Program-made: the position numbers and the translations under genes
Notes under the pieces: generated by a model
What the model saw: only the letters and a program-made list of their open reading frames with translations
Told to the model about the DNA's origin: nothing
The model's database searches: none
Shown: in pieces, positions 12,126-63,092 of the stretch
Numbering within the stretch: the first letter of the stretch is position 1
Layout: each line of letters opens with the position of its first letter
Assembly: GCF_030463535.1 (NCBI RefSeq)
Contig: NC_132879.1
Location: 34,702,925-34,766,924 of the forward strand
Length of the DNA: 64,000 nucleotides
From: Salminus brasiliensis
Lineage: Eukaryota > Chordata > Actinopteri > Characiformes > Bryconidae
Direction of reading: 5' to 3'

Positions 12126-12245
12126 GTCCTCACTGCTCATCCTTAGGCTGGAGATCAGAGCAAGGGCATGTTTTGTTCTATCTAGTAACTAACAGGGGTC
12201 CACTACTGTTAGGGGTCAATAAACCCTTTTTGTAAGAATGTTATA

Positions 12246-12253
<8 letters not shown>

Positions 12254-12305
<52 letters not shown>
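12254..12305. repeat. (TA)n microsatellite at Tc1 left end
   Basis: About 50 bp of TA repeats ending directly at the left TIR of the Tc1 element. A shorter TA run resumes at 13922 on its right. The element appears to have inserted inside a TA microsatellite, in keeping with TA target choice. Confidence 0.9.
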
Positions 12306-12308
<3 letters not shown>

Positions 12309-12519
12309 TCATGCCCGAAAGTATTCATACCACTGGCAAAGTTTGACTTAAATTTACTTTTATTTAACCAGAAGTTATATTTTTGCCTTGAAACGATACA
12401 GGCATCTCCCAGGAGATAACATGATGATGTACAAGAGGCATCATTGTGGGAAAAAGTATTTCTCAGCTTTTATACACATTTGAACAAAAAGTGGCATGTC
12501 CAAAATTATTCATACCCTT
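12306..12519 (+). repeat. Tc1 left terminal inverted repeat
   Basis: Pairs with 13708-13921. Outer and inner 22-bp direct repeats at 12310-12331 and 12495-12516 are the expected transposase-binding sites. Confidence 0.9.
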
Positions 12520-12683
12520 TGAAAACTGTCACAGTATATAGGAAAATCCAAAGTTCTATACCATTCCAAATAGTCCAAGCTGTTTTAAAGCATCCTAATT
12601 ACCCTGATTCATTGGGAACAGCTGTTTTAATTAACTCAACAGGAAAAAAACAGCAGCTCTCTGCAGTTGGTTTGTGGACAGTC

Positions 12684-13706
12684 ATGGCTAAGACAAAGGA
12701 GCTCACTAAGGACCTGCGGCTGTGCATTGTGGCCGCTCACAAGTCAGGAAAGGGCTATAAAGCCATATCAAAATGTTTTCAAGTTCCAGTGGCTACAGTG
12801 CAAAGTATTATTAAAAAATACAAGAAGTTCCGCACTGTGGAACATCTCAGAAGATGTGGTCGGAAGCCAAAAGTGACACCTGTGCTGGCCAGGAGAATAG
12901 TGAGAGAGGTGAAGAAAAATCCAAGGATCACCACCAAGGCCATCCTGGTGAATCTGGACTCTGCTGGTGGCGACATCTCAAGGCAGACAGTTCAACGGAC
13001 ACTGCACACTGCTGGGTTCCACGGACGCAGGCCAAGGAGGACACCACTTCTCCAGAAAAGGCACACAAAAGCCCGCTTGACCTTTGCAAATGCTCATCTG
13101 GACAAAGAAGAAGACTTCTGGTGTTCTGTTTTATGGTCAGATGAAACAAAAATTGAATTGTTTGGCCACAATGATGTGTGCACCATTTGGCGTAAAAAAG
13201 GAGAAGCCTTCAACCCTAAGAACACCATCCCCACTGTCAAACATGGTGGTGGGAACCTAATGTTTTGGGGGTGTTTTTCAGCCAATGGACCAGGGAACTT
13301 GATCGCAGTAAATGGCACCATGAAAAAAGAGCAATACATCAAGATTCTCAACAACAACATCAGGCAGTCTGCAGAGAAACTTGGCCTTGGGAACCGGTGG
13401 ACATTTCAGCACGACAACGACCCAAAACACACAGCCAAAGTAGTGAAGAAATGGTTAGCAGACAAAAACATTAATGTTTTGCAGTGGCCCAGTCAGAGTC
13501 CTGACTTGAATCCAATTGAGAATCTGTGGAGGGAGCTAAAGATCAGGGTGATGGCAAGGAGACCCTCGAACCTCAAAGAGTTGGAGCTCATCACTAAAGA
13601 TGAATGGGCAAAAATACCAGTGGAGACATGCAAAAAGCTGGTCAGCAATTACAGGAAGCGTTTGATTGCTGTAATAGCCAATAAAGGCTTTTCTTTTAAT
13701 TATTGA
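12684..13706 (+). CDS. Tc1-like DD34E transposase, intact
   Basis: A 340-aa cut-and-paste transposase, the usual length for fish Tc1 enzymes. The ORF is open from 12444, but I take the start at 12684 (MAKTKELTKD) because upstream codons lie in the TIR and the protein then has family length. Residues 1-50 form the first helix-turn-helix (GYKAISKCFQVPVATVQSII); 57-66 hold a GRPR-like basic hook (GRKPK); 67-120 the second HTH and basic nuclear-localisation stretch. The catalytic triad is D153 (LWSDETKIELFG), D244 ([10 protein letters not shown]) and E279 (NPIENLW), with 34 residues between the last two: DD34E. A glycine-rich block lies at 188-202. No frameshift or stop, so it could be functional. 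Activity is not shown by sequence alone. Confidence 0.95.
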   Translation: MAKTKELTKDLRLCIVAAHKSGKGYKAISKCFQVPVATVQSIIKKYKKFRTVEHLRRCGRKPKVTPVLARRIVREVKKNPRITTKAILVNLDSAGGDISRQTVQRTLHTAGFHGRRPRRTPLLQKRHTKARLTFANAHLDKEEDFWCSVLWSDETKIELFGHNDVCTIWRKKGEAFNPKNTIPTVKHGGGNLMFWGCFSANGPGNLIAVNGTMKKEQYIKILNNNIRQSAEKLGLGNRWTFQHDNDPKHTAKVVKKWLADKNINVLQWPSQSPDLNPIENLWRELKIRVMARRPSNLKELELITKDEWAKIPVETCKKLVSNYRKRLIAVIANKGFSFNY

Positions 13707-13707
13707 G

Positions 13708-13921
13708 AAGGGTATGAATAATTTTGGACATGCCACTTTTTGTTCAAATGTGTATAAAAGCTGAGAAATATTTTTTCCCACAATGATGCCTCTTGTACAT
13801 CATCGTGTTATCTCCTGGGATATACCTGTGTCATTTCCAGGCAAAAATATAATTTCTGGTTAAATAAAAGTAAATTTAAGTCAAACTTTGACAGGGGTAT
13901 GAATACTTTCGGGCATGACTG
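13708..13921 (-). repeat. Tc1 right terminal inverted repeat
   Basis: Starts two bases after the transposase stop (AAGGGTATGAATAATTTTGG) and ends TTCGGGCATGACTG before the flanking TA. Inverted copy of 12306-12519 with few mismatches. Confidence 0.9.
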
Positions 13922-13939
13922 TATATATATATATATATA

Positions 13940-26889: not shown

Positions 26890-27260
26890 CACAAAATTGC
26901 TAATGCCACTGTTGCCACAACCCATGCTTCACTTGGTACAGCGTTCTTTTCCCCAAAGTGTACACTTGCTGAATGTGGCCAAAGAGTTCTAGTTTGACTT
27001 CATCGGTCCACAGGACTCCAAAGCTTAAATGGCTTGTCAAGATATTCTGTAGCACACTTTAAATGTTGAGTTTTCTCAAGGTCTGCAATGCTGCACAGTG
27101 GAGCAGTGCAACCCTAGACTCCGCTTATCATGTATGCAGGTTCTTGGCAGTCATATGAGGGTTTCGATGCTGTCTTATGAGCATACAAGCAGGTCTCTCT
27201 AAAATGTTACTTCATCTTCCAGATGTCATCTGGATCTCCACAGTTCCCCTCAACAGCAAT
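26890..27260 (-). pseudogene. Decayed Tc1-like transposase (middle part)
   Basis: The minus-strand reading yields GTVEIQMTSGR, then HRNPHMTAKNL, LHCSTVQH and finally VLWTDEVKLELFGH. In Tc1 transposases the last block carries the first catalytic aspartate (WTDE). Frameshifts and stops separate the pieces and the DPKHT and NPIEN parts are absent, so it is dead. Its wording differs from the elements at 12.3 kb and 47.2 kb, so it is a third Tc1 family. Confidence 0.65.
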
Positions 27261-27522
27261 TCTATATGCTGCACTATGGAAACTGCAAGCTGAAATATGC
27301 TTGATTTAATGGTGTACATTGTGTTCACATTAATAAAGTAAACTACTGGCAAATATAAATGAAGTGAAATACAAATGTAAGTTGACGTATTGCATATTAT
27401 TCATATGAAAGTAAATAAAATGAATCCACACCCTTAAGTGACCCTTCACACAATACCGCTCATCTGTTATTACAGCTCATCTATGTCTATGCTCAATATA
27501 TAGGTTACCGGATATTTGTGTG

Positions 27523-47221: not shown

Positions 47222-48386
47222 CAGTGGGGAAAAAGTATTTGGTCAGTCACCAATTGTGCAAGTTCTCCCACTTAAAAAAATGAGAGGCCTGTAATTGACA
47301 TCATAGGTAGACCTCAACTATGAGAGACAAAATGAGAAAAAAAAATTTCTGAAAATCACATTGTCTGATTTTTGAATTTATTTGCAAATAATGGTGGAAA
47401 ATTAGTATTTGGTCAATAACAAAAGTTCATCTCAATACTTTGTTATATATCCTTTGTTGGCAATGACAGAGGTCAAACGTTTTCTGTAAGGCTTCACAAG
47501 GTTGGCACACACCGTTGCTGGTATGTTGGCCCATTCCTCCATGCAGATCTCCTCTAGAGCAGTGATGCTTTGGGGCTGTCGGCAGGCAACACGGACTTTC
47601 AACTCCCTCCAAAGGTTTTCTATGGGGTTGAGATCTGGAGACTGGTTGGGCCACTTCAGGACCTTGAAATGCTTCTTACGAAGCCACTCCTTTGTTGCCC
47701 TGGCAGTGTGCTTGGGATCATTGTCATGCTGAAAGACCCAGCCACGTTTCATCTTCAATGCCCTTGCTGATGGAAGGAGGTTTGCACTCAAAATCTCACA
47801 ATACATGACCCCATTCATTCTTTCATGTACACGGACCAGTCGTCCTAGTCCCTTTGCAGAGAAACAGCCCAAAGCATGATGTTGCCACCCCCATGCTTCA
47901 CAGTTGGTTACACCATTTTCTGATTATTGCTCCCACAGTAGATTTCTTCACACCAAGCTGCTTGCCTATTGCAGATTCAGTCTTCCCAGTCTGGTGCAGG
48001 TCTATAATTTTGTTTCTGGTGTCCTTCGACAGCTCTTTGGTCTTCACCATAGTGGAGTTTGGAGTGTGACTGTTTGAGGTTGTGGGCAGGTCTTTTATAC
48101 TGTTAACGAGTTCAAACAGGTGCCATTAATACGGGTAATGAGTGGAGGACAGAGAAACCTCTTAAAGAAGAAATCTTGCTTGTTTGTAGGTGACCAAATA
48201 CTTATTTTCCACCATTATTTGCAAATAAATTCTTTAAAAATCAGACAATGTGATTTTCAGACTTTTTTTCTCATTTTGTCTCTCATAGTTGAGGTCTACC
48301 TATGATCTCAATTACAGGCCTCTCATCTTTTTAAGTGGGAGAACTTGCACAACTGGTGACTGACTAAATACTTTTTTTCCCCACTG
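47222..48386 (-). mobile_element. Internally deleted Tc1-like transposon
   Basis: TA-flanked (47220-47221, 48387-48388), with long inverted termini starting CAGTGGGGAAAAAGTATTTG and ending, inverted, with the same wording. Arms are about 200 bp. The 1165-bp length against about 1.6 kb for complete relatives, and the shortened transposase, show an internal deletion. Different family from 12306-13921. Confidence 0.9.
47432..48050 (-). pseudogene. Tc1-like transposase, deleted and frameshifted
   Basis: From 48050 the minus strand encodes [20 protein letters not shown] and an HTH ending in IIRKW. It then jumps, across a stop and a one-base shift, to KHGGGNIML and the C-terminal half (47872-47432: [24 protein letters not shown], ending ANKGYITKY). 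Roughly 140 residues, including the first catalytic Asp and the second HTH, are missing. The D and E of the DPKHT and NPIEN blocks remain with 34-residue spacing. Not functional. Confidence 0.9.
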
Positions 48387-53970: not shown

Positions 53971-54995
53971 GTTTTCTGAAATCAACACAGGGTCAAAATA
54001 TACATTATTCATCAATTTAATTATCAATAAAAAAAATATTAGTTGAAATTTCCAACTTCAAAATCTTTAAACTTGCCAAGGCCTCTAAACGTCCTGTACG
54101 TGATCATGGTCGACTGCACCTGGCAGCTTTTCTGTGCCCTCATATAAAAGGGTAATTTTACAGCAATCATTGGTCTCACCAACATACAGTACAACGGGAA
54201 AGTCCAAGGAGCTCAGAGCAGATCTGAGAAGGCTCGCCATAGGATTACAGAAGTCAGGGATGTCTCTTGGAGCCATTTTTAAATCATAGCATAGTCCAGG
54301 ATCATCAGGACCTTATAGCCACCTGGGTTACCTCTGGAAGAAGACACAAACTGTCACATTCAGCTGAGAAGAAATTGGTACTGAAACAAACCACCAAGAA
54401 CCACTGTTGGCACAGGCCTGCTGTGAACTGGAAGAGGCCCCTGCTCCAAAACCGGCACCTTTTAAGGCCAACTGAAGTTTGCAGGTGTCCACATGAATCA
54501 AACATGCCTCGAGGAAGCTCAGGTTGGAAGAGTAAGGAGGGTGAGTCGTTTAACCCCAGGATCCCCACCCCGACAGTACCATCTGTTGAGTGTGGTGTTT
54601 TGGAACTGGTACAGTGCACAAAGTGGATAGACTAATGATGAAGGAGGATTCGCATCGGCATTACTGGTTATAAGCTCAAGCCATCGGCTAGATGGTTGAA
54701 ACCTGGACCTAGCTGGGTGTTTCAACAGGACAGTGAATCCAAACACACGTCAGTGGTGATTGTGGATTGGATGAAGCAGGCTAACGATAAGCTTTTCGAT
54801 TGGCCTTCACAAAATCCTGACCTCAGATATGTGAATATGAACAAGTCTGTGCCAGGAAGCCAACAAGACAGATCAAATATTTAACCAGAATTCTGCCAGG
54901 AGCTTGTTGATTGCTACACACCATGTTTGGTGAAGGTGTTACTTGCTAAGTTACGTTTAACCACATTTTTGACCCTGTTGATTTTCGAAACACAC
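53971..54995 (+). mobile_element. Decayed Tc1-like transposon in scaf11 intron 1
   Basis: Inverted pieces GAAATCAACACAGGGTCAAA (53981-54000) and TTTTTGACCCTGTTGATTTT (about 54965-54984) look like eroded TIRs around transposase remnants on the + strand. Approximate boundaries only. Confidence 0.6.
54160..54890 (+). pseudogene. Tc1-like transposase remnant
   Basis: Pieces in order: a GKSKELRADLRRLA-like start near 54197, then VQDHQDLIATWVTSGRRHKL (about 54294) and LSHSAEKKLVLKQTTKNH. The block with the first catalytic Asp is missing. Later come WVFQQDSESKHTSVVIVDWM (second Asp kept, DNDPKHT changed to DSESKHT) and LFDWPSQNPDL, after which the E-bearing NPIEN block is lost (reads RYVNMN). Several frameshifts; inactive. 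Confidence 0.7.
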
Positions 54996-56810: not shown

Positions 56811-59800
56811 ATTAATTAATAAGTTGTCAGGATAGGTGGTGTCAGATGTGGCAAATTTACAAATTAAATATTAAAGAAGTGTTTGAAGGTTTGTGTTCAC
56901 CACTGCTTTGGGAGTGTTATGAATGAGATTTCCCCGTGAAACAAATGTCATGATAATCAGACTAAATGCTGCAGATGAGGAAATGAGTGGAGGTTGTGAA
57001 CATGTCGTACTCTGCATTGTTAGGTGTGCAGGGTGTAGACGATGGGTCGGAGGACGAGGAAAACCAGCGTTGCCCAATTTGTCTGAATAACCCCAGCCCT
57101 TCCGAGCGTGCTGTACCTGATGGCTGCAGCCACTTCTACTGTTTCAACTGCATCCTGCGCTGGGCTCAGGTCTGTCACTCCTACAGCATCTATTCATAAC
57201 GGTCACAAACACAAATCGCTTCTACTCTCTCTATAATTCTGGACCTACCGATAGACTGCTTTATGTGCACTGTTTGCTGATCTGTCATTGGATGCCTTAC
57301 TAAGTAACTATATATGCAACAGACTGGCCTTTTGCATTTGTTAGCTAGGTGACTAATGTTGTTCAGGTGTAAAGACCCTCTTGACATTTGTGGAAAATAC
57401 CGAAGCCAAGAATATAAATATAACTATGAAAAAATAAATGTCATTATTTTTGAATATGTTAACAAGGATTAAAGGATTAGGTCTGTTCCTAGAATGTTGT
57501 CCAACTTTAGAAAAAAAAACGTTATTCATTAAGATGAATGAATAAATAAAATTGCTTCCACTAAACGAACTAATCCAGTCTTCACAATTACACCACCACA
57601 GGTGTCATAACTAGTCCAGTATGACACGGATGTTTATTACATACAACTGGCAGGCAAATTAAGCATGTGATGTCCTGTTTACGCCTTGTACAGGCCCGTC
57701 ATAATTGGATTTATATGTAAGGATATTTTATGTAGAGTTGTAGACAAAATTTAAATGGCTACTGTTGCTGTATTGTTTTAGTGCTGGTCACAAACTAAAT
57801 TGTCACCCTTCTGCTAATCTTACTATGTCTGATGTGGCGCAGATGGTGCAAGTCTGCCCGGTGGACCGGAGGCCATTTAGCGCAATCTGCAGGCAGGACC
57901 CTTTGCTGGGTTACACCAAGGTCAGACATGGTCCTCTGTGTACATCTCTCTCACTATTAAAGGGTGTCTTCATTGGTTTAGTTCTTTTTTAATGACCTAA
58001 TGGGTCTATGCTATTTTTGCAGATTCCTGTGAAAACACCAAGCATAGCAAACACTGATGTATGCAACCATAAAGATGTTGAAACAGTGAGAGGCTTTTCA
58101 AAGTAGGTATTTTTTGTGTTGACTTGTCATATTGATTGGTACTCTTGTGTTGGGATATGTGCCCTGAATAAACACCTACAAGTGTACTTTTGCGTTTCAT
58201 ACAAGTAATGGCGCATAATATTGTTGTTGACTACAGAGAGGAGATAGCCGAAACTGGAGGAAAGGATGGGAAAAGAGCTCTTGCTGAGCCCAAATGTCAA
58301 AGATGTATGTACTTTACCAATTTCAAGCTAAGCCTTATTTTTACTTTATTTGTGAAAATGTTCTCTTAATGAAACATGCTACAAATATTCATGTGTTGCA
58401 GTTGCACTTATTATTTTTTTTTGTATATATTTATTACCAACAGGTGATGCTGATTACTCTGCCCAGAAGAAGAAAAAGGTTTGTTGTGCTCATGACACCG
58501 CTGTCAGTTTAATTTTGGCTTATGGTATCTCCATTCACAAATGCATGTTGCAACAATAACCCTGTTTAATTCCCTCTACAGGTGAGAAGAGAGACCTGCC
58601 GCTCACAGCTGCTTACTCCAAACACTCAGCTTGGGCTGTCAGCCCAGCAGGGGGAGACACTTAGTACACTGACCCAAATCGTGTAAGTGGCTCCTGGAAT
58701 GTTTTTTGTGAGCAAGAGTCAGCACAGTCTTTACATAGGCATTTTTGCCTTCATCAGTCTAGACATGTGTGTATGCTGGGAGTAATTTCATTGGCATTAA
58801 ATGAGTGGAGTGAGAGTTGGGGTGGCTTTATTTAAATTCATTTTAAGAATTTAATTAAGCAGTTGATCTAATACCAGTCTGAGGTGTATGGAAGTCATGG
58901 AAGTAACTGGGGTATCTGGAAGGAAATCTCACCCTTTGATTTCATTAGAAATATTGGACTAGGAGGTGTTTACACAATTTTCGACATATATATTTAACGT
59001 GTTTTAACTGATTTACAGACTCTGATTTACAAAACCTGAGCTCTAATTGTTACTGGTATTGTTGTGCAGCACGGGGTCGGTAGTCTGTGAGGAGGAGCCA
59101 GTAGATGAGGAATGGCGACAGTGTCGGAGAAATATGGCAGAACACCAGTGGCTGCCTGTTTCTAAATCCACTTCCCCTACACACATGACAAGGTGACTAA
59201 CCTCTCACAGCCTTTTTTGAGGGTCATTACTTTACATTACATTACTGATTGGGTAATGTACCTACCAGGGCACAGTATTACACAAATGATTGGCATGTTC
59301 CAGTAATTACAGTAATGATCAAGTAATTTTGCAGTGACCTGTTTATATGCAGTTACTTACCTGTGTATTGTTTTCTGGAATCAGCATTCTTTCCAGACAC
59401 TGCCCCCGTGCTCCTGCACTTCCTCAGCAGCCCCACTTTATACAGTCAACCTCTCCATGTCCACTAAGATCTGGATTCTCGGGTGAGTACACTGAAACCT
59501 GACCTTATGTAACACCTGCCTAACCAACACATCACCGTAGAGTAGAAGCTGGCATCTACTTTTGGTCATTGAATTGTTTTATAACATTCATGGTAACCGT
59601 TCGCTCATTTGCTTTGCATTTATCAGTCCATTATGGAAAGGCTTGTGCAGTAACGTGCCCCAAAGGTGAGGGAAGAAAGAGTACGAGAGGGTCTGGCTCA
59701 AAAACCTCTGCGAATCAAGAACAGAACCTTGCATCCCGGCGCTCATCCAGACGTAGAAAAAGTGGGAATGAGGAGCCTGTGTCCGCTCAGCCTCAGCATT

Positions 59801-60214
59801 CTGACTCCGACTCTTCCTCACCTGCTGGCAGTGCGTCAAGTGACATGCATGCTTCTACAAGCAAAGAAAGGCAGGCTGGCAAACAGAAACCTGGTAACAG
59901 AAGGAAAGGAGGTGCAAAAAAGAAGGCTACTCGACAGACACTGGTTGAGAGTGAGGAGGAGGGCAATGAGGAAGAACCGGAAGCTGGACAGAGGAGTCAG
60001 GAGGAAACGGCTGTTGATGTGGATGAGTCACAGGAATTGGGGACAGATGAGGAGGCAAAGGTAGATCAGAGTCCCTGTCAAGGAGATGCAGGTGTCGATG
60101 TAGATGTAGCTTCAAATTCCGTAGATTATGATGGAAGTGATTCTAAAATAGACACTGAAGATTTGCCCAATCCAGAAGAGTGTGAACCTGTTTCCCCTCT
60201 CCTCGAAGAACAGC

Positions 60215-60249
<35 letters not shown>

Positions 60250-63092
60250 ATGGAGGCAGATGACCCTATCAAGCCAGAGGAAAATCAGACCTGTTTTCAA
60301 GAAAAGTTGGATTGTTCTGAAGAGGAAACACCTGAGGAAGAACCAGCAGAGCGAGAACCATCTGAAAAGGAATACCCACTCTCTCCTCCCTGTGCAGAGC
60401 AGACAAATGTAGAGGGATCTGGTCACACCTCTGACGATTCTACTGCCCAGCTTCAGGATGATTTCACTACTGCAGCAGAGAGCTCTTTGGACAAGATAAC
60501 TGATGAAAAAGCAGAATCTGAAACTCCAGTTGAGCCAGATGAGTGTGAAAGTGTAACAAGTGAGGTCTCCAAACTTCCTGTGTCTAACAGCTGCTCACCT
60601 CAACACACAAGTGAAAACTCTTTGCTGAAAGACCCCGATCAAGACCTTGAAGTGACAGAGCACAGAGACCAGGAGACAAAGCCCGATGAATCTCTGGACA
60701 CCAGTGGTCATCAGGATAACACTGATTCAATTCCTATGGATTGTGATTCACCTGGCTCCGATAATGCTTCCCTTCCTTCTGAGACCGTCTCAGAGAGTAA
60801 TAGTGCTGCTCCTGCACCTCAGATCTCCTCTGTCGACCAAACTCCCAGTCAGGAGGGAGAGCAGAAGAGCAAGGAGGAGGAGCCTAGGCCTGATCCTTCA
60901 AAAGACCAGAGAGCCTCGGACAGAAAAGAGAGAAGCCAGCGCAAGTCTCGTTTTCACTCCCCGACAACCACCTGGTCTCCTAAGCGGGAATCCAGAGGGG
61001 AGAGATCATGGAGATCACGGTCGAGGGATCGCGATCGCGATCGCAGTCGCAAATCAAGCTCACCGCCCAGGAGTCGAGGTCGTGAGCACGAAGAGGAGCG
61101 TGGCAGCTCCAGGCGGAACCGCAGCAGGGACAGACGAAGCAGGAGACGTTCTCGCAGTCGTTCTAGAAGTCGCTCGAGATCGCGCTCAAGGTCCAGAAAC
61201 AGGCCAAGCCGGAGAAGTCCGTCTCCAGAACGCAATGATCAAGGGTCACAGTCACCACGGAAAAGAGACTCTTGGGGAGGCGAAAGCTGGAGAGGTGCAC
61301 GTAACTTCCGCAGCTCCAACTGGAGGAACAATTCAGATAGACAGAATCAGTTTTCATCAAGAGAGGCCAACTCCTCAGGCAATGGCAGCCTCAACGAGAC
61401 ATCGCCAGACAGAGGTCAATCCGAAAACCCACCCTGGGTGAAGGAAAGATCGTGGGGAAATGCTGATGGCAGGCAGCGTGAGCAGCGCTCGGAGGAGAAT
61501 TCTGATGACGCTCCTGCAGACTCTTGGTCTCGAGGAGGCTGGGGCTCCGAACAAGGCCGTGGCGGTGGACGTGGTCGGGCTGGGCAGCGGCCCTCCAGCA
61601 TGCAGGGGGAATCTGCGGCAGATAACTGGCGACAACAGCGTAACTCTTTCTCAGGGACGACAAATAACGCAGGGAGTGACTCCTACAGTCGCTTTAATGA
61701 AAATAGACCTGGAGGGAAGAGGAAAGAGGCTGACTCCTCTGATACACCACTGGACCGGTCAGGGTGGTCCTCCGCTTCCAGCTGGGCAGTACGCCGAACC
61801 CTCCCTGCAGATGTACAGAACTACTACTCGCGAAGAGAGCGAGGTCCTGGGCCAGGTGGCAGCATCTGGAACAGACAAGAAGATGACCAACCTGCAGCTG
61901 GTTTCTCCAAACAAACAGGTGTGTATCTTTATTTATTTATTTATTTATGTGCATTTTTCTAGGAATGGTACCGTTCATCTGATTTATTGAATTGTCATCT
62001 TTACCCAAATGTTGTGTGTGTATGTAATATCAGAAACTCTATTGTGGAGTAAAAATCATTTGGTACGAAGTGTTCAGTCAGTACCTAGAATATGCCAAGT
62101 CCGTATAACTCAATCAGGCTAGCTGTGTGTTTTGTTGTCTGTAATTTAGTGTAGGTAAACTCATGTCCACATAATTTATACCTTTTTTGACTGCAGACCT
62201 CCCACAGAGTGAGCCAAGTACCCATCTACCTAATGAAGCAGTACCAGCCCCACCTGCTGTAATGCCCCACCAGCTCAATGTACTAGGGGTCCTGCGCTAC
62301 CCGCTAGGGCCTATGGTACCCCGAGCCCCTTCTGTAGGCCCCCAGCCTGCTCTGTTTGCCATGCCCCCACAGATACCGGTACACCTGCATGCGCCAGGGC
62401 CTCCTCTCTCTATGCCCACCATGGCTGTGCAGAGTCTGCCACCACCTCCGCCACCACCTCCCCCTGTACAGCAAGGCAGCATCACTGTCCTTCCAGCTGA
62501 CAACCTCCCTCAGGTTAGTAGTCAAAGCTGTTATTGCTCCTCATATCTACATTTTGTTTTTCTTTTGTTCTTTAGTTTCAGCATCATTTGTGGTTTTGGT
62601 GGTGAAAGCGTAGTACGTGTGGTCCAGCTGGACTGAAATTAAATGGCTATTAATTGTGTAGGATTTTAAAGTGTGCATACCTTTTTTAACCAGGTCATTA
62701 CAAGTTTCCCTGTGCCAGCAAAGCCCCCCCTGAAAGTGACCCCAAACAAGGCAACACCACTGCAAGTTCATCCTACCAGCACTCCCAGTGTAGCACAGCC
62801 ATCCTCCACTACACAACCCCCTTCTCACAGCAAAGCTCATGCAGACAGCTCCAAGAAAGAGAAAGTAAGTGGCTTTTGTTGAGCTCGTCATAAACCAGGG
62901 ACCTCCTTTTTCTTTTTTCTTTACCAGATTAACACCTGGTGATCTATTAAACTGACTTTTTTATCATCTCAGAAGTTACAGATTCAGGAAAGAGCCATCA
63001 GTGAGGTAAAAGCAGCCATCAAGCCATACTACCAGAAGAAGGATATCACTAAGGATGAGTACAAGGAGATTGTACGCAAAGCTGTAGAAAAA
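55479..63092 (+). CDS. scaf11: SR-related CTD-associated factor 11 (3' end off window)
   Basis: Nuclear RS-rich protein that binds SRSF2 and aids early spliceosome assembly. Coding exons: 55479-55500, 57024-57169, 57843-57920, 58023-58102, 58237-58304, 58444-58478, 58582-58682, 59070-59192, 59385-59482, 59627-61918 (2.3 kb), 62197-62513, 62694-62864, 62973-63092. All are in frame, giving 1217 codons so far (human about 1460 aa). RING-like finger: C24, C27, C42, H44, C47, C50, C61 and D64 in place of the last Cys (CPVD, as in human). Acidic Ser-rich part about 290-690 with a ten-Asp run at 448-457; RS domain about 710-790; Gly/Arg-rich 885-910; Pro-rich linker in exon 12; conserved C-terminal helices ([20 protein letters not shown]) in the last visible exon. 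The exon 4 acceptor at 57842 was chosen because it restores RING spacing. The final exon(s) lie past 64000. Confidence 0.93.
56755..56810. repeat. (TA)n-(T)n run in scaf11 intron 2
   Basis: TA repeats followed by about 28 T residues. Confidence 0.9.
60217..60246 (+). repeat. scaf11: (GAT)10 coding microsatellite in scaf11
   Basis: Ten GAT codons give a poly-aspartate run inside the acidic region; likely length-variable between individuals. Confidence 0.9.

Follow-up and report, generated by a model that had tools for sequence, protein, structure and literature searches.

A complete Tc1-like element of Sleeping Beauty-type architecture and its recently spread DD34E/Tc1 family

Introduction

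Sleeping Beauty (SB), a reconstructed transposon, and the zebrafish element ZB (Tc1-8B_DR) are the closest described systems to the element reported here. According to PMC9777934, SB is 68% identical to SB-like elements in the DDE domain and 55% identical in the DNA-binding region, while the corresponding values for the ZB group are 58-61% and 34-38%. The same source counts more than 100 intact ZB-like copies in each of 26 species, 19 of which are ray-finned fishes; young intact Tc1 bursts comparable to that of the present family are already described there in many ray-finned fishes. ZB is reported as an element of 1597 bp with a protein of 341 aa and terminal inverted repeats (TIRs) of 201 bp (PMC7913693), against 1616 bp, 340 aa and 214 bp for the present element. 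Young intact copies and AT-repeat targets are shared by the two (PMC7913693, PMC9777934), as far as they can be compared by description rather than by sequence.

The present element lies in a stretch of 64,000 nucleotides (the window), in which an earlier reading of the letters alone (the sequence-only reading) had proposed a structurally complete Tc1-like transposon. Domain order, the DD34E triad, long TIRs of the IR/DR type and the TA target are common to SB and the present family, and so is the preference for AT repeats, which PMC9777934 describes for SB. In contrast to the reconstructed SB, the copies of the present family are native. The DDE domain agrees with the SB catalytic domain 5cr4 at 139 of 225 residues (62%), and the DNA-binding region agrees with the SB pieces 2m8e and 5unk at 27 of 54 and 19 of 53 residues, which gives 46 of 107 (43%) in total. 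These identities are below those given in PMC9777934 for SB and SB-like elements and slightly above those for SB and the ZB group; compared as protein, they also fall short of the coding identity of more than 80% that this source uses for the SB clade. The element thus belongs to DD34E/Tc1 without being SB itself. No report about this family was found among the titles and abstract openings listed by the literature searches.

Results

The complete element occupies 1616 bp of the window (12306..13921, +) and has the ends CAGTCATG...CATGACTG. Its left (12306..12519, +) and right (13708..13921, -) TIRs are 214 bp each, and the left TIR matches the reverse-complemented right end at 204 of 214 positions. 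Five of the ten mismatches are left/right differences of the family majority, and the other five are departures of the window copy. Each TIR carries two direct-repeat cores at element positions 7-29 (outer) and 192-214 (inner), 185 bp apart. On the left, the outer (12312..12334, +) and inner (12497..12519, +) cores match at 18 of 23 positions; on the right, the inner core (13708..13730, -), which is also direct-repeat family D2, and the outer core (13893..13915, -) match at 19 of 23. The element therefore shows the IR/DR arrangement, i.e. TIRs of about 200 bp with two direct repeats each, and the sequence-only reading was right about both TIRs of about 214 bp and all four repeats. The TA claimed on both sides is likewise present, within a (TA)n tract whose left part (12242..12305, no strand) holds the TA target and ends in 26 perfect units, and whose right part is a (TA)9 flank (13922..13939, no strand). 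Because the window copy sits in this tract, its own duplicated TA cannot be singled out.

The transposase reading frame (12684..13706, +) is open over 340 codons plus stop, with no internal stop or frameshift. The protein begins with the helix-turn-helix domain HTH_SB (aa 1-53, 12684..12842, +; Pfam PF25787, 87.2 bits), followed by the motif GRKP (aa 59-62, 12858..12869, +), the second helix-turn-helix domain HTH_Tnp_Tc3_2 (aa 70-140, 12891..13103, +; PF01498, 86.8 bits) and the DDE_3 catalytic domain (aa 149-300, 13128..13583, +; PF13358, 63.1 bits). All three domains scored above the Pfam cut-offs. The literal letters GRPR do not occur in the 340 residues, and GRKP stands in their place as the GRPR-like hook. 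The catalytic residues D153 (13140..13142, +), D244 (13413..13415, +) and E279 (13518..13520, +) are D, D and E in 39/39 homologues (alignment A1), with a spacing of 34 residues between the last two. The bipartite N-terminal helix-turn-helix with a GRPR-like motif and the DD34E triad that mark DD34E/Tc1 transposases are thus both found here, and the sequence-only description of the frame, the triad, the two helix-turn-helix regions and the hook holds in each point. A structure model based on a 40-sequence alignment (mean pLDDT 82.4, pTM 0.58) predicted six helices ahead of residue 110 and gave 5cr4 as the best fold match, followed by Mos1. The solved structures nearest by sequence are SB pieces as well.

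The genome scanned comprised 1.07 Gb on 103 contigs. A first look yielded 1878 candidates, and the best 40 were scored, namely the window copy and 39 others, a set biased to the least diverged copies. These 39 were all full length at 99% identity among the best 40 of 1878, which supplies the many near-identical full-length copies that the sequence-only reading had proposed to look for; hence chance is ruled out as the origin of the window element. Every one of the best 40 measured exactly 1616 bp with the same ends (the last base is changed in L011), so that at least 40 copies of this length stand against 20 full-length copies reported for ZB in zebrafish, and 34 of the 40 had an open transposase. 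The median distance of the other 39 from the family majority was 3 bases, compared with 12 for the window copy. Genome-wide, the 27-base terminus was found with up to 2 mismatches at 615 forward and 613 reverse sites, while the reversed terminus, used as a control, gave 0 forward and 0 reverse sites.

A second sample consisted of 100 of these 1228 termini, the exact matches on contig C1 up to 48.8 Mb, which formed 44 pairs and 12 singletons. All 44 pairs (36 new and 8 from the earlier set) and 11 of the 12 singletons were examined. This sample is less biased than the best 40, yet it still favours copies with perfect ends. After 10 of the 36 new pairs had been dropped as members of one amplified segment, the remaining 26 independent pairs differed from the majority by 0.41% on average (median 0.37%, range 0.14-0.81%). 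The sequence-only reading had named divergence above 10% in all other copies as the outcome that would speak against recent activity, and these pairs are far below it. Together with L022, L023, L047, the amplified segment counted once and ten singletons, they make up 40 independent C1 insertions, 19 of which have both ends and an open reading frame.

The substitution rate used for ZB, 4.13e-9 per site per year with t = K/2r (PMC7913693), places the mean C1 copy at roughly 0.5 My and the window copy at roughly 0.9 My; when the factor of two is left out, the equally rough values are 1.0 My and 1.8 My. The spread of the hundreds of near-identical copies probably dates back no further than about one to two million years. 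Two derivatives were also seen. L092 holds a copy of 1236 bp (502-1737) with an internal deletion and both ends kept, a possible non-autonomous derivative, and L093 holds a rearranged derivative of 350 bp (502-851), in which 33 bases of one end adjoin 319 inverted bases from that end; it possibly arose by aberrant transposition or repair. The value of 20.58% obtained for L093 was set aside, as a global alignment does not suit a rearranged copy.

On C1, one segment is present in many copies between 40.57 and 45.06 Mb (loci L042-L046, L071-L080, L088-L090, L097 and L100-L104). When the best 40 of 87 candidates for a 600-bp piece of it were scored, the copies were spaced 48-344 kb apart, with 24 of 39 spacings at or below 101 kb. 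The units fall into two classes of about 96% and 99-100% identity; in the closer class, one and the same dead Tc1 insertion is present in 16 of the 17 units listed. These 16 copies are a single insertion with premature stops that was multiplied by segmental amplification. A 478-bp tandem satellite adjoins the amplified piece in L088.

Of the best 40, 36 have independent flanks; 35 of these 36 show TA on both sides, as expected for clean insertion into TA by the family, and L021 is the exception. Around 26 of these 36 insertions the joined flanks formed runs of at least 6 TA units, compared with 5.2% of the TA steps in the window. The family prefers (TA)n tracts as targets. Paralogous units of the C1 array that lack the element were also informative: in each of the five units fetched, the corresponding position holds a TA tract, which is perfect in L102 and L103; in L100, L101 and L104 it contains one C. 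Thus the C1 insertion, an insertion other than that of the window, entered a pre-existing TA tract with clean ends. Four of the five empty units are from the 96% class and one, L102, is from the 99-100% class; L102 may have lost the element by clean excision or by conversion with an empty unit as donor.

The window copy was then compared with the family majority. The suggestion that its completeness sets it apart did not survive, as 19 of 40 independent C1 insertions also have both ends and an open frame, and among 62 independent copies only one is more diverged than the window copy. It carries 12 substitutions relative to the majority, 11 of which occur in no other of the 62. Only two of them change the protein, N54H and I338F; both are private to the window copy, and H at residue 54 and F at residue 338 each occur in 0/39 homologues. 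Five of the 12 lie in the TIRs and affect both of them, including a private change at 12332 within the left outer repeat core and a change at element position 117 that is common to the window copy and four other independent copies. Given these private changes in protein and TIRs, the window copy itself is only a candidate for activity. When each coding change in the 62 copies is counted once, there are 90 nonsynonymous, 31 synonymous and 4 stop changes (neutral expectation 86.5, 34.0 and 4.5); counted per copy, there are 124, 33 and 7 (neutral expectation 113, 45 and 6). Judged from these counts, the coding changes look neutral, and the open frames therefore reflect youth and tell nothing about whether function was kept. 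The copies appear to drift unconstrained after insertion, and the window copy appears to have drifted further than most.

In Tc1-type excision, as in SB, CAG or CTG is expected to remain within TA tracts. For ZB, footprints of 0-3 bases are reported (PMC7913693). At 75 sites, two (TA)5 runs were found to enclose a strong-weak-strong triplet, compared with 7 sites for the backward pattern. Among the 50 sites listed of these 75, a tally by eye gave 28 CAG/CTG, 17 CAC/GTG, 3 GAG/CTC and 2 GAC/GTC. The share of CAG/CTG in the listed sites is above one quarter (P about 3e-6), but its excess over CAC/GTG is not clear (P=0.07). Within the retrieved loci, none of 13 sites with a shorter TA context was CAG/CTG. 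As a sign of excision, the CAG/CTG footprints are suggestive only, and they are not specific to this family, since the same triplet is expected from every Tc1 family whose ends are CAG.

Discussion

With high confidence, we regard the window element as a copy that looks autonomous and belongs to a young DD34E/Tc1 family of SB-type architecture, which spread by cut-and-paste and prefers (TA)n tracts. By analogy with related transposases, its two helix-turn-helix domains would bind the direct repeats, and the element ends would be paired by the transposase; the DDE triad would then make the cut, which can leave CAG or CTG at the old site, and the excised element would insert at TA. Recent transposition of the family is well supported. 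The earlier idea of recent activity holds at this level, as hundreds of termini, divergences of well under 1%, many open reading frames and paralogous empty sites all point in the same direction. Naturally intact DNA transposons of vertebrates are useful because no reconstruction is needed to study them, and so young a burst keeps a clear record of the target choice and decay of Tc1 elements.

Near-identical copies can also arise when a segment is duplicated together with its passenger, and this stays true for the C1 array itself, in which flanks of 99-100% identity and premature stops mark the 16 copies located from 40.57 to 44.93 Mb. Passengers of this sort account for 5 of the best 40 hits, and the near-identity of listed copies alone is thus not proof of transposition; in general, passengers of segmental duplications mimic recent transposition in lists of this kind. 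As the main source of the family, however, duplication is highly improbable. Among 76 copies, the array gave the only cluster with flanks more than 95% alike over 150 bases, the sole other flank-sharing pair in the best 40, L019/L039, reaches 82%, and 26 of 36 independent insertions lie in TA runs. (The L019/L039 likeness extends over about 390 bases, and the two may have inserted into copies of some other repeat.) Mis-assembly, to which young high-copy repeats are prone, might in turn have produced the intact reading frame as a consensus of collapsed copies. A collapsed copy should resemble the majority, but the window copy departs from it at 12 positions, nearly all of them its own, and other family copies retain their own stops and indels; hence we consider such an artefact extremely unlikely.

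Whether the family is still transposing today, with the window copy or its sisters live, is a separate matter, and we hold it to be possible but somewhat less probable than its opposite. Some copies differ from the majority at only 1-2 positions, L014 and L017 are identical in sequence although located on different contigs, nearly half of the independent C1 insertions (the 19 of 40 above) keep both ends and an open frame, and CAG/CTG is the commonest of the four triplet classes in the listed sites. However, those footprints are neither family-specific nor dated, CAC/GTG is also common there (17 of 50), and the shorter-context sites yielded no CAG/CTG at all. A further reading, that the family is autonomous, still jumping and recently arrived by horizontal transfer among freshwater fishes, appears unlikely. 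In its favour, the best database protein, from Prochilodus magdalenae, is identical to the family majority protein at 337 of 340 residues (99% identical to the window frame), and the next, from the catfish Hemibagrus guttatus, at 312 of 340 (92%); both were compared as protein and are labelled only 'hypothetical protein' or 'Transposase'. The best named match of a host SCAF11 coding exon (window 59524-61962, +), in contrast, was the catfish Trichomycterus rosablanca, with only 52% over 79%. Yet the host RAG1 exon has its best named match at 90% in the cyprinid Cirrhinus mrigala, so that 92% transposase identity between orders need not mean transfer. The host may also just be closely related to Prochilodus. 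The Hemibagrus RAG1 entry gave 71% over 89%, possibly owing to a faulty gene model. Prochilodus was absent from both the SCAF11 and the RAG1 match lists, perhaps through annotation and the length filter alone, and the two exons point to a host that is probably ostariophysan. Twelve stretches of viral contigs matched the search pattern, and none of the twelve encodes a relative.

Other traces of transposases were seen in the same window. At 47432-47923 (-) lies a truncated fragment of a different Tc1-like transposase, with a DDE_3 domain and 55% identity over 145 aa. The segments 54534-54950 (+) and 26921-27316 (-) gave weak matches (26-29% identity) to the transposase of the present element and are apparently old Tc1 remnants.
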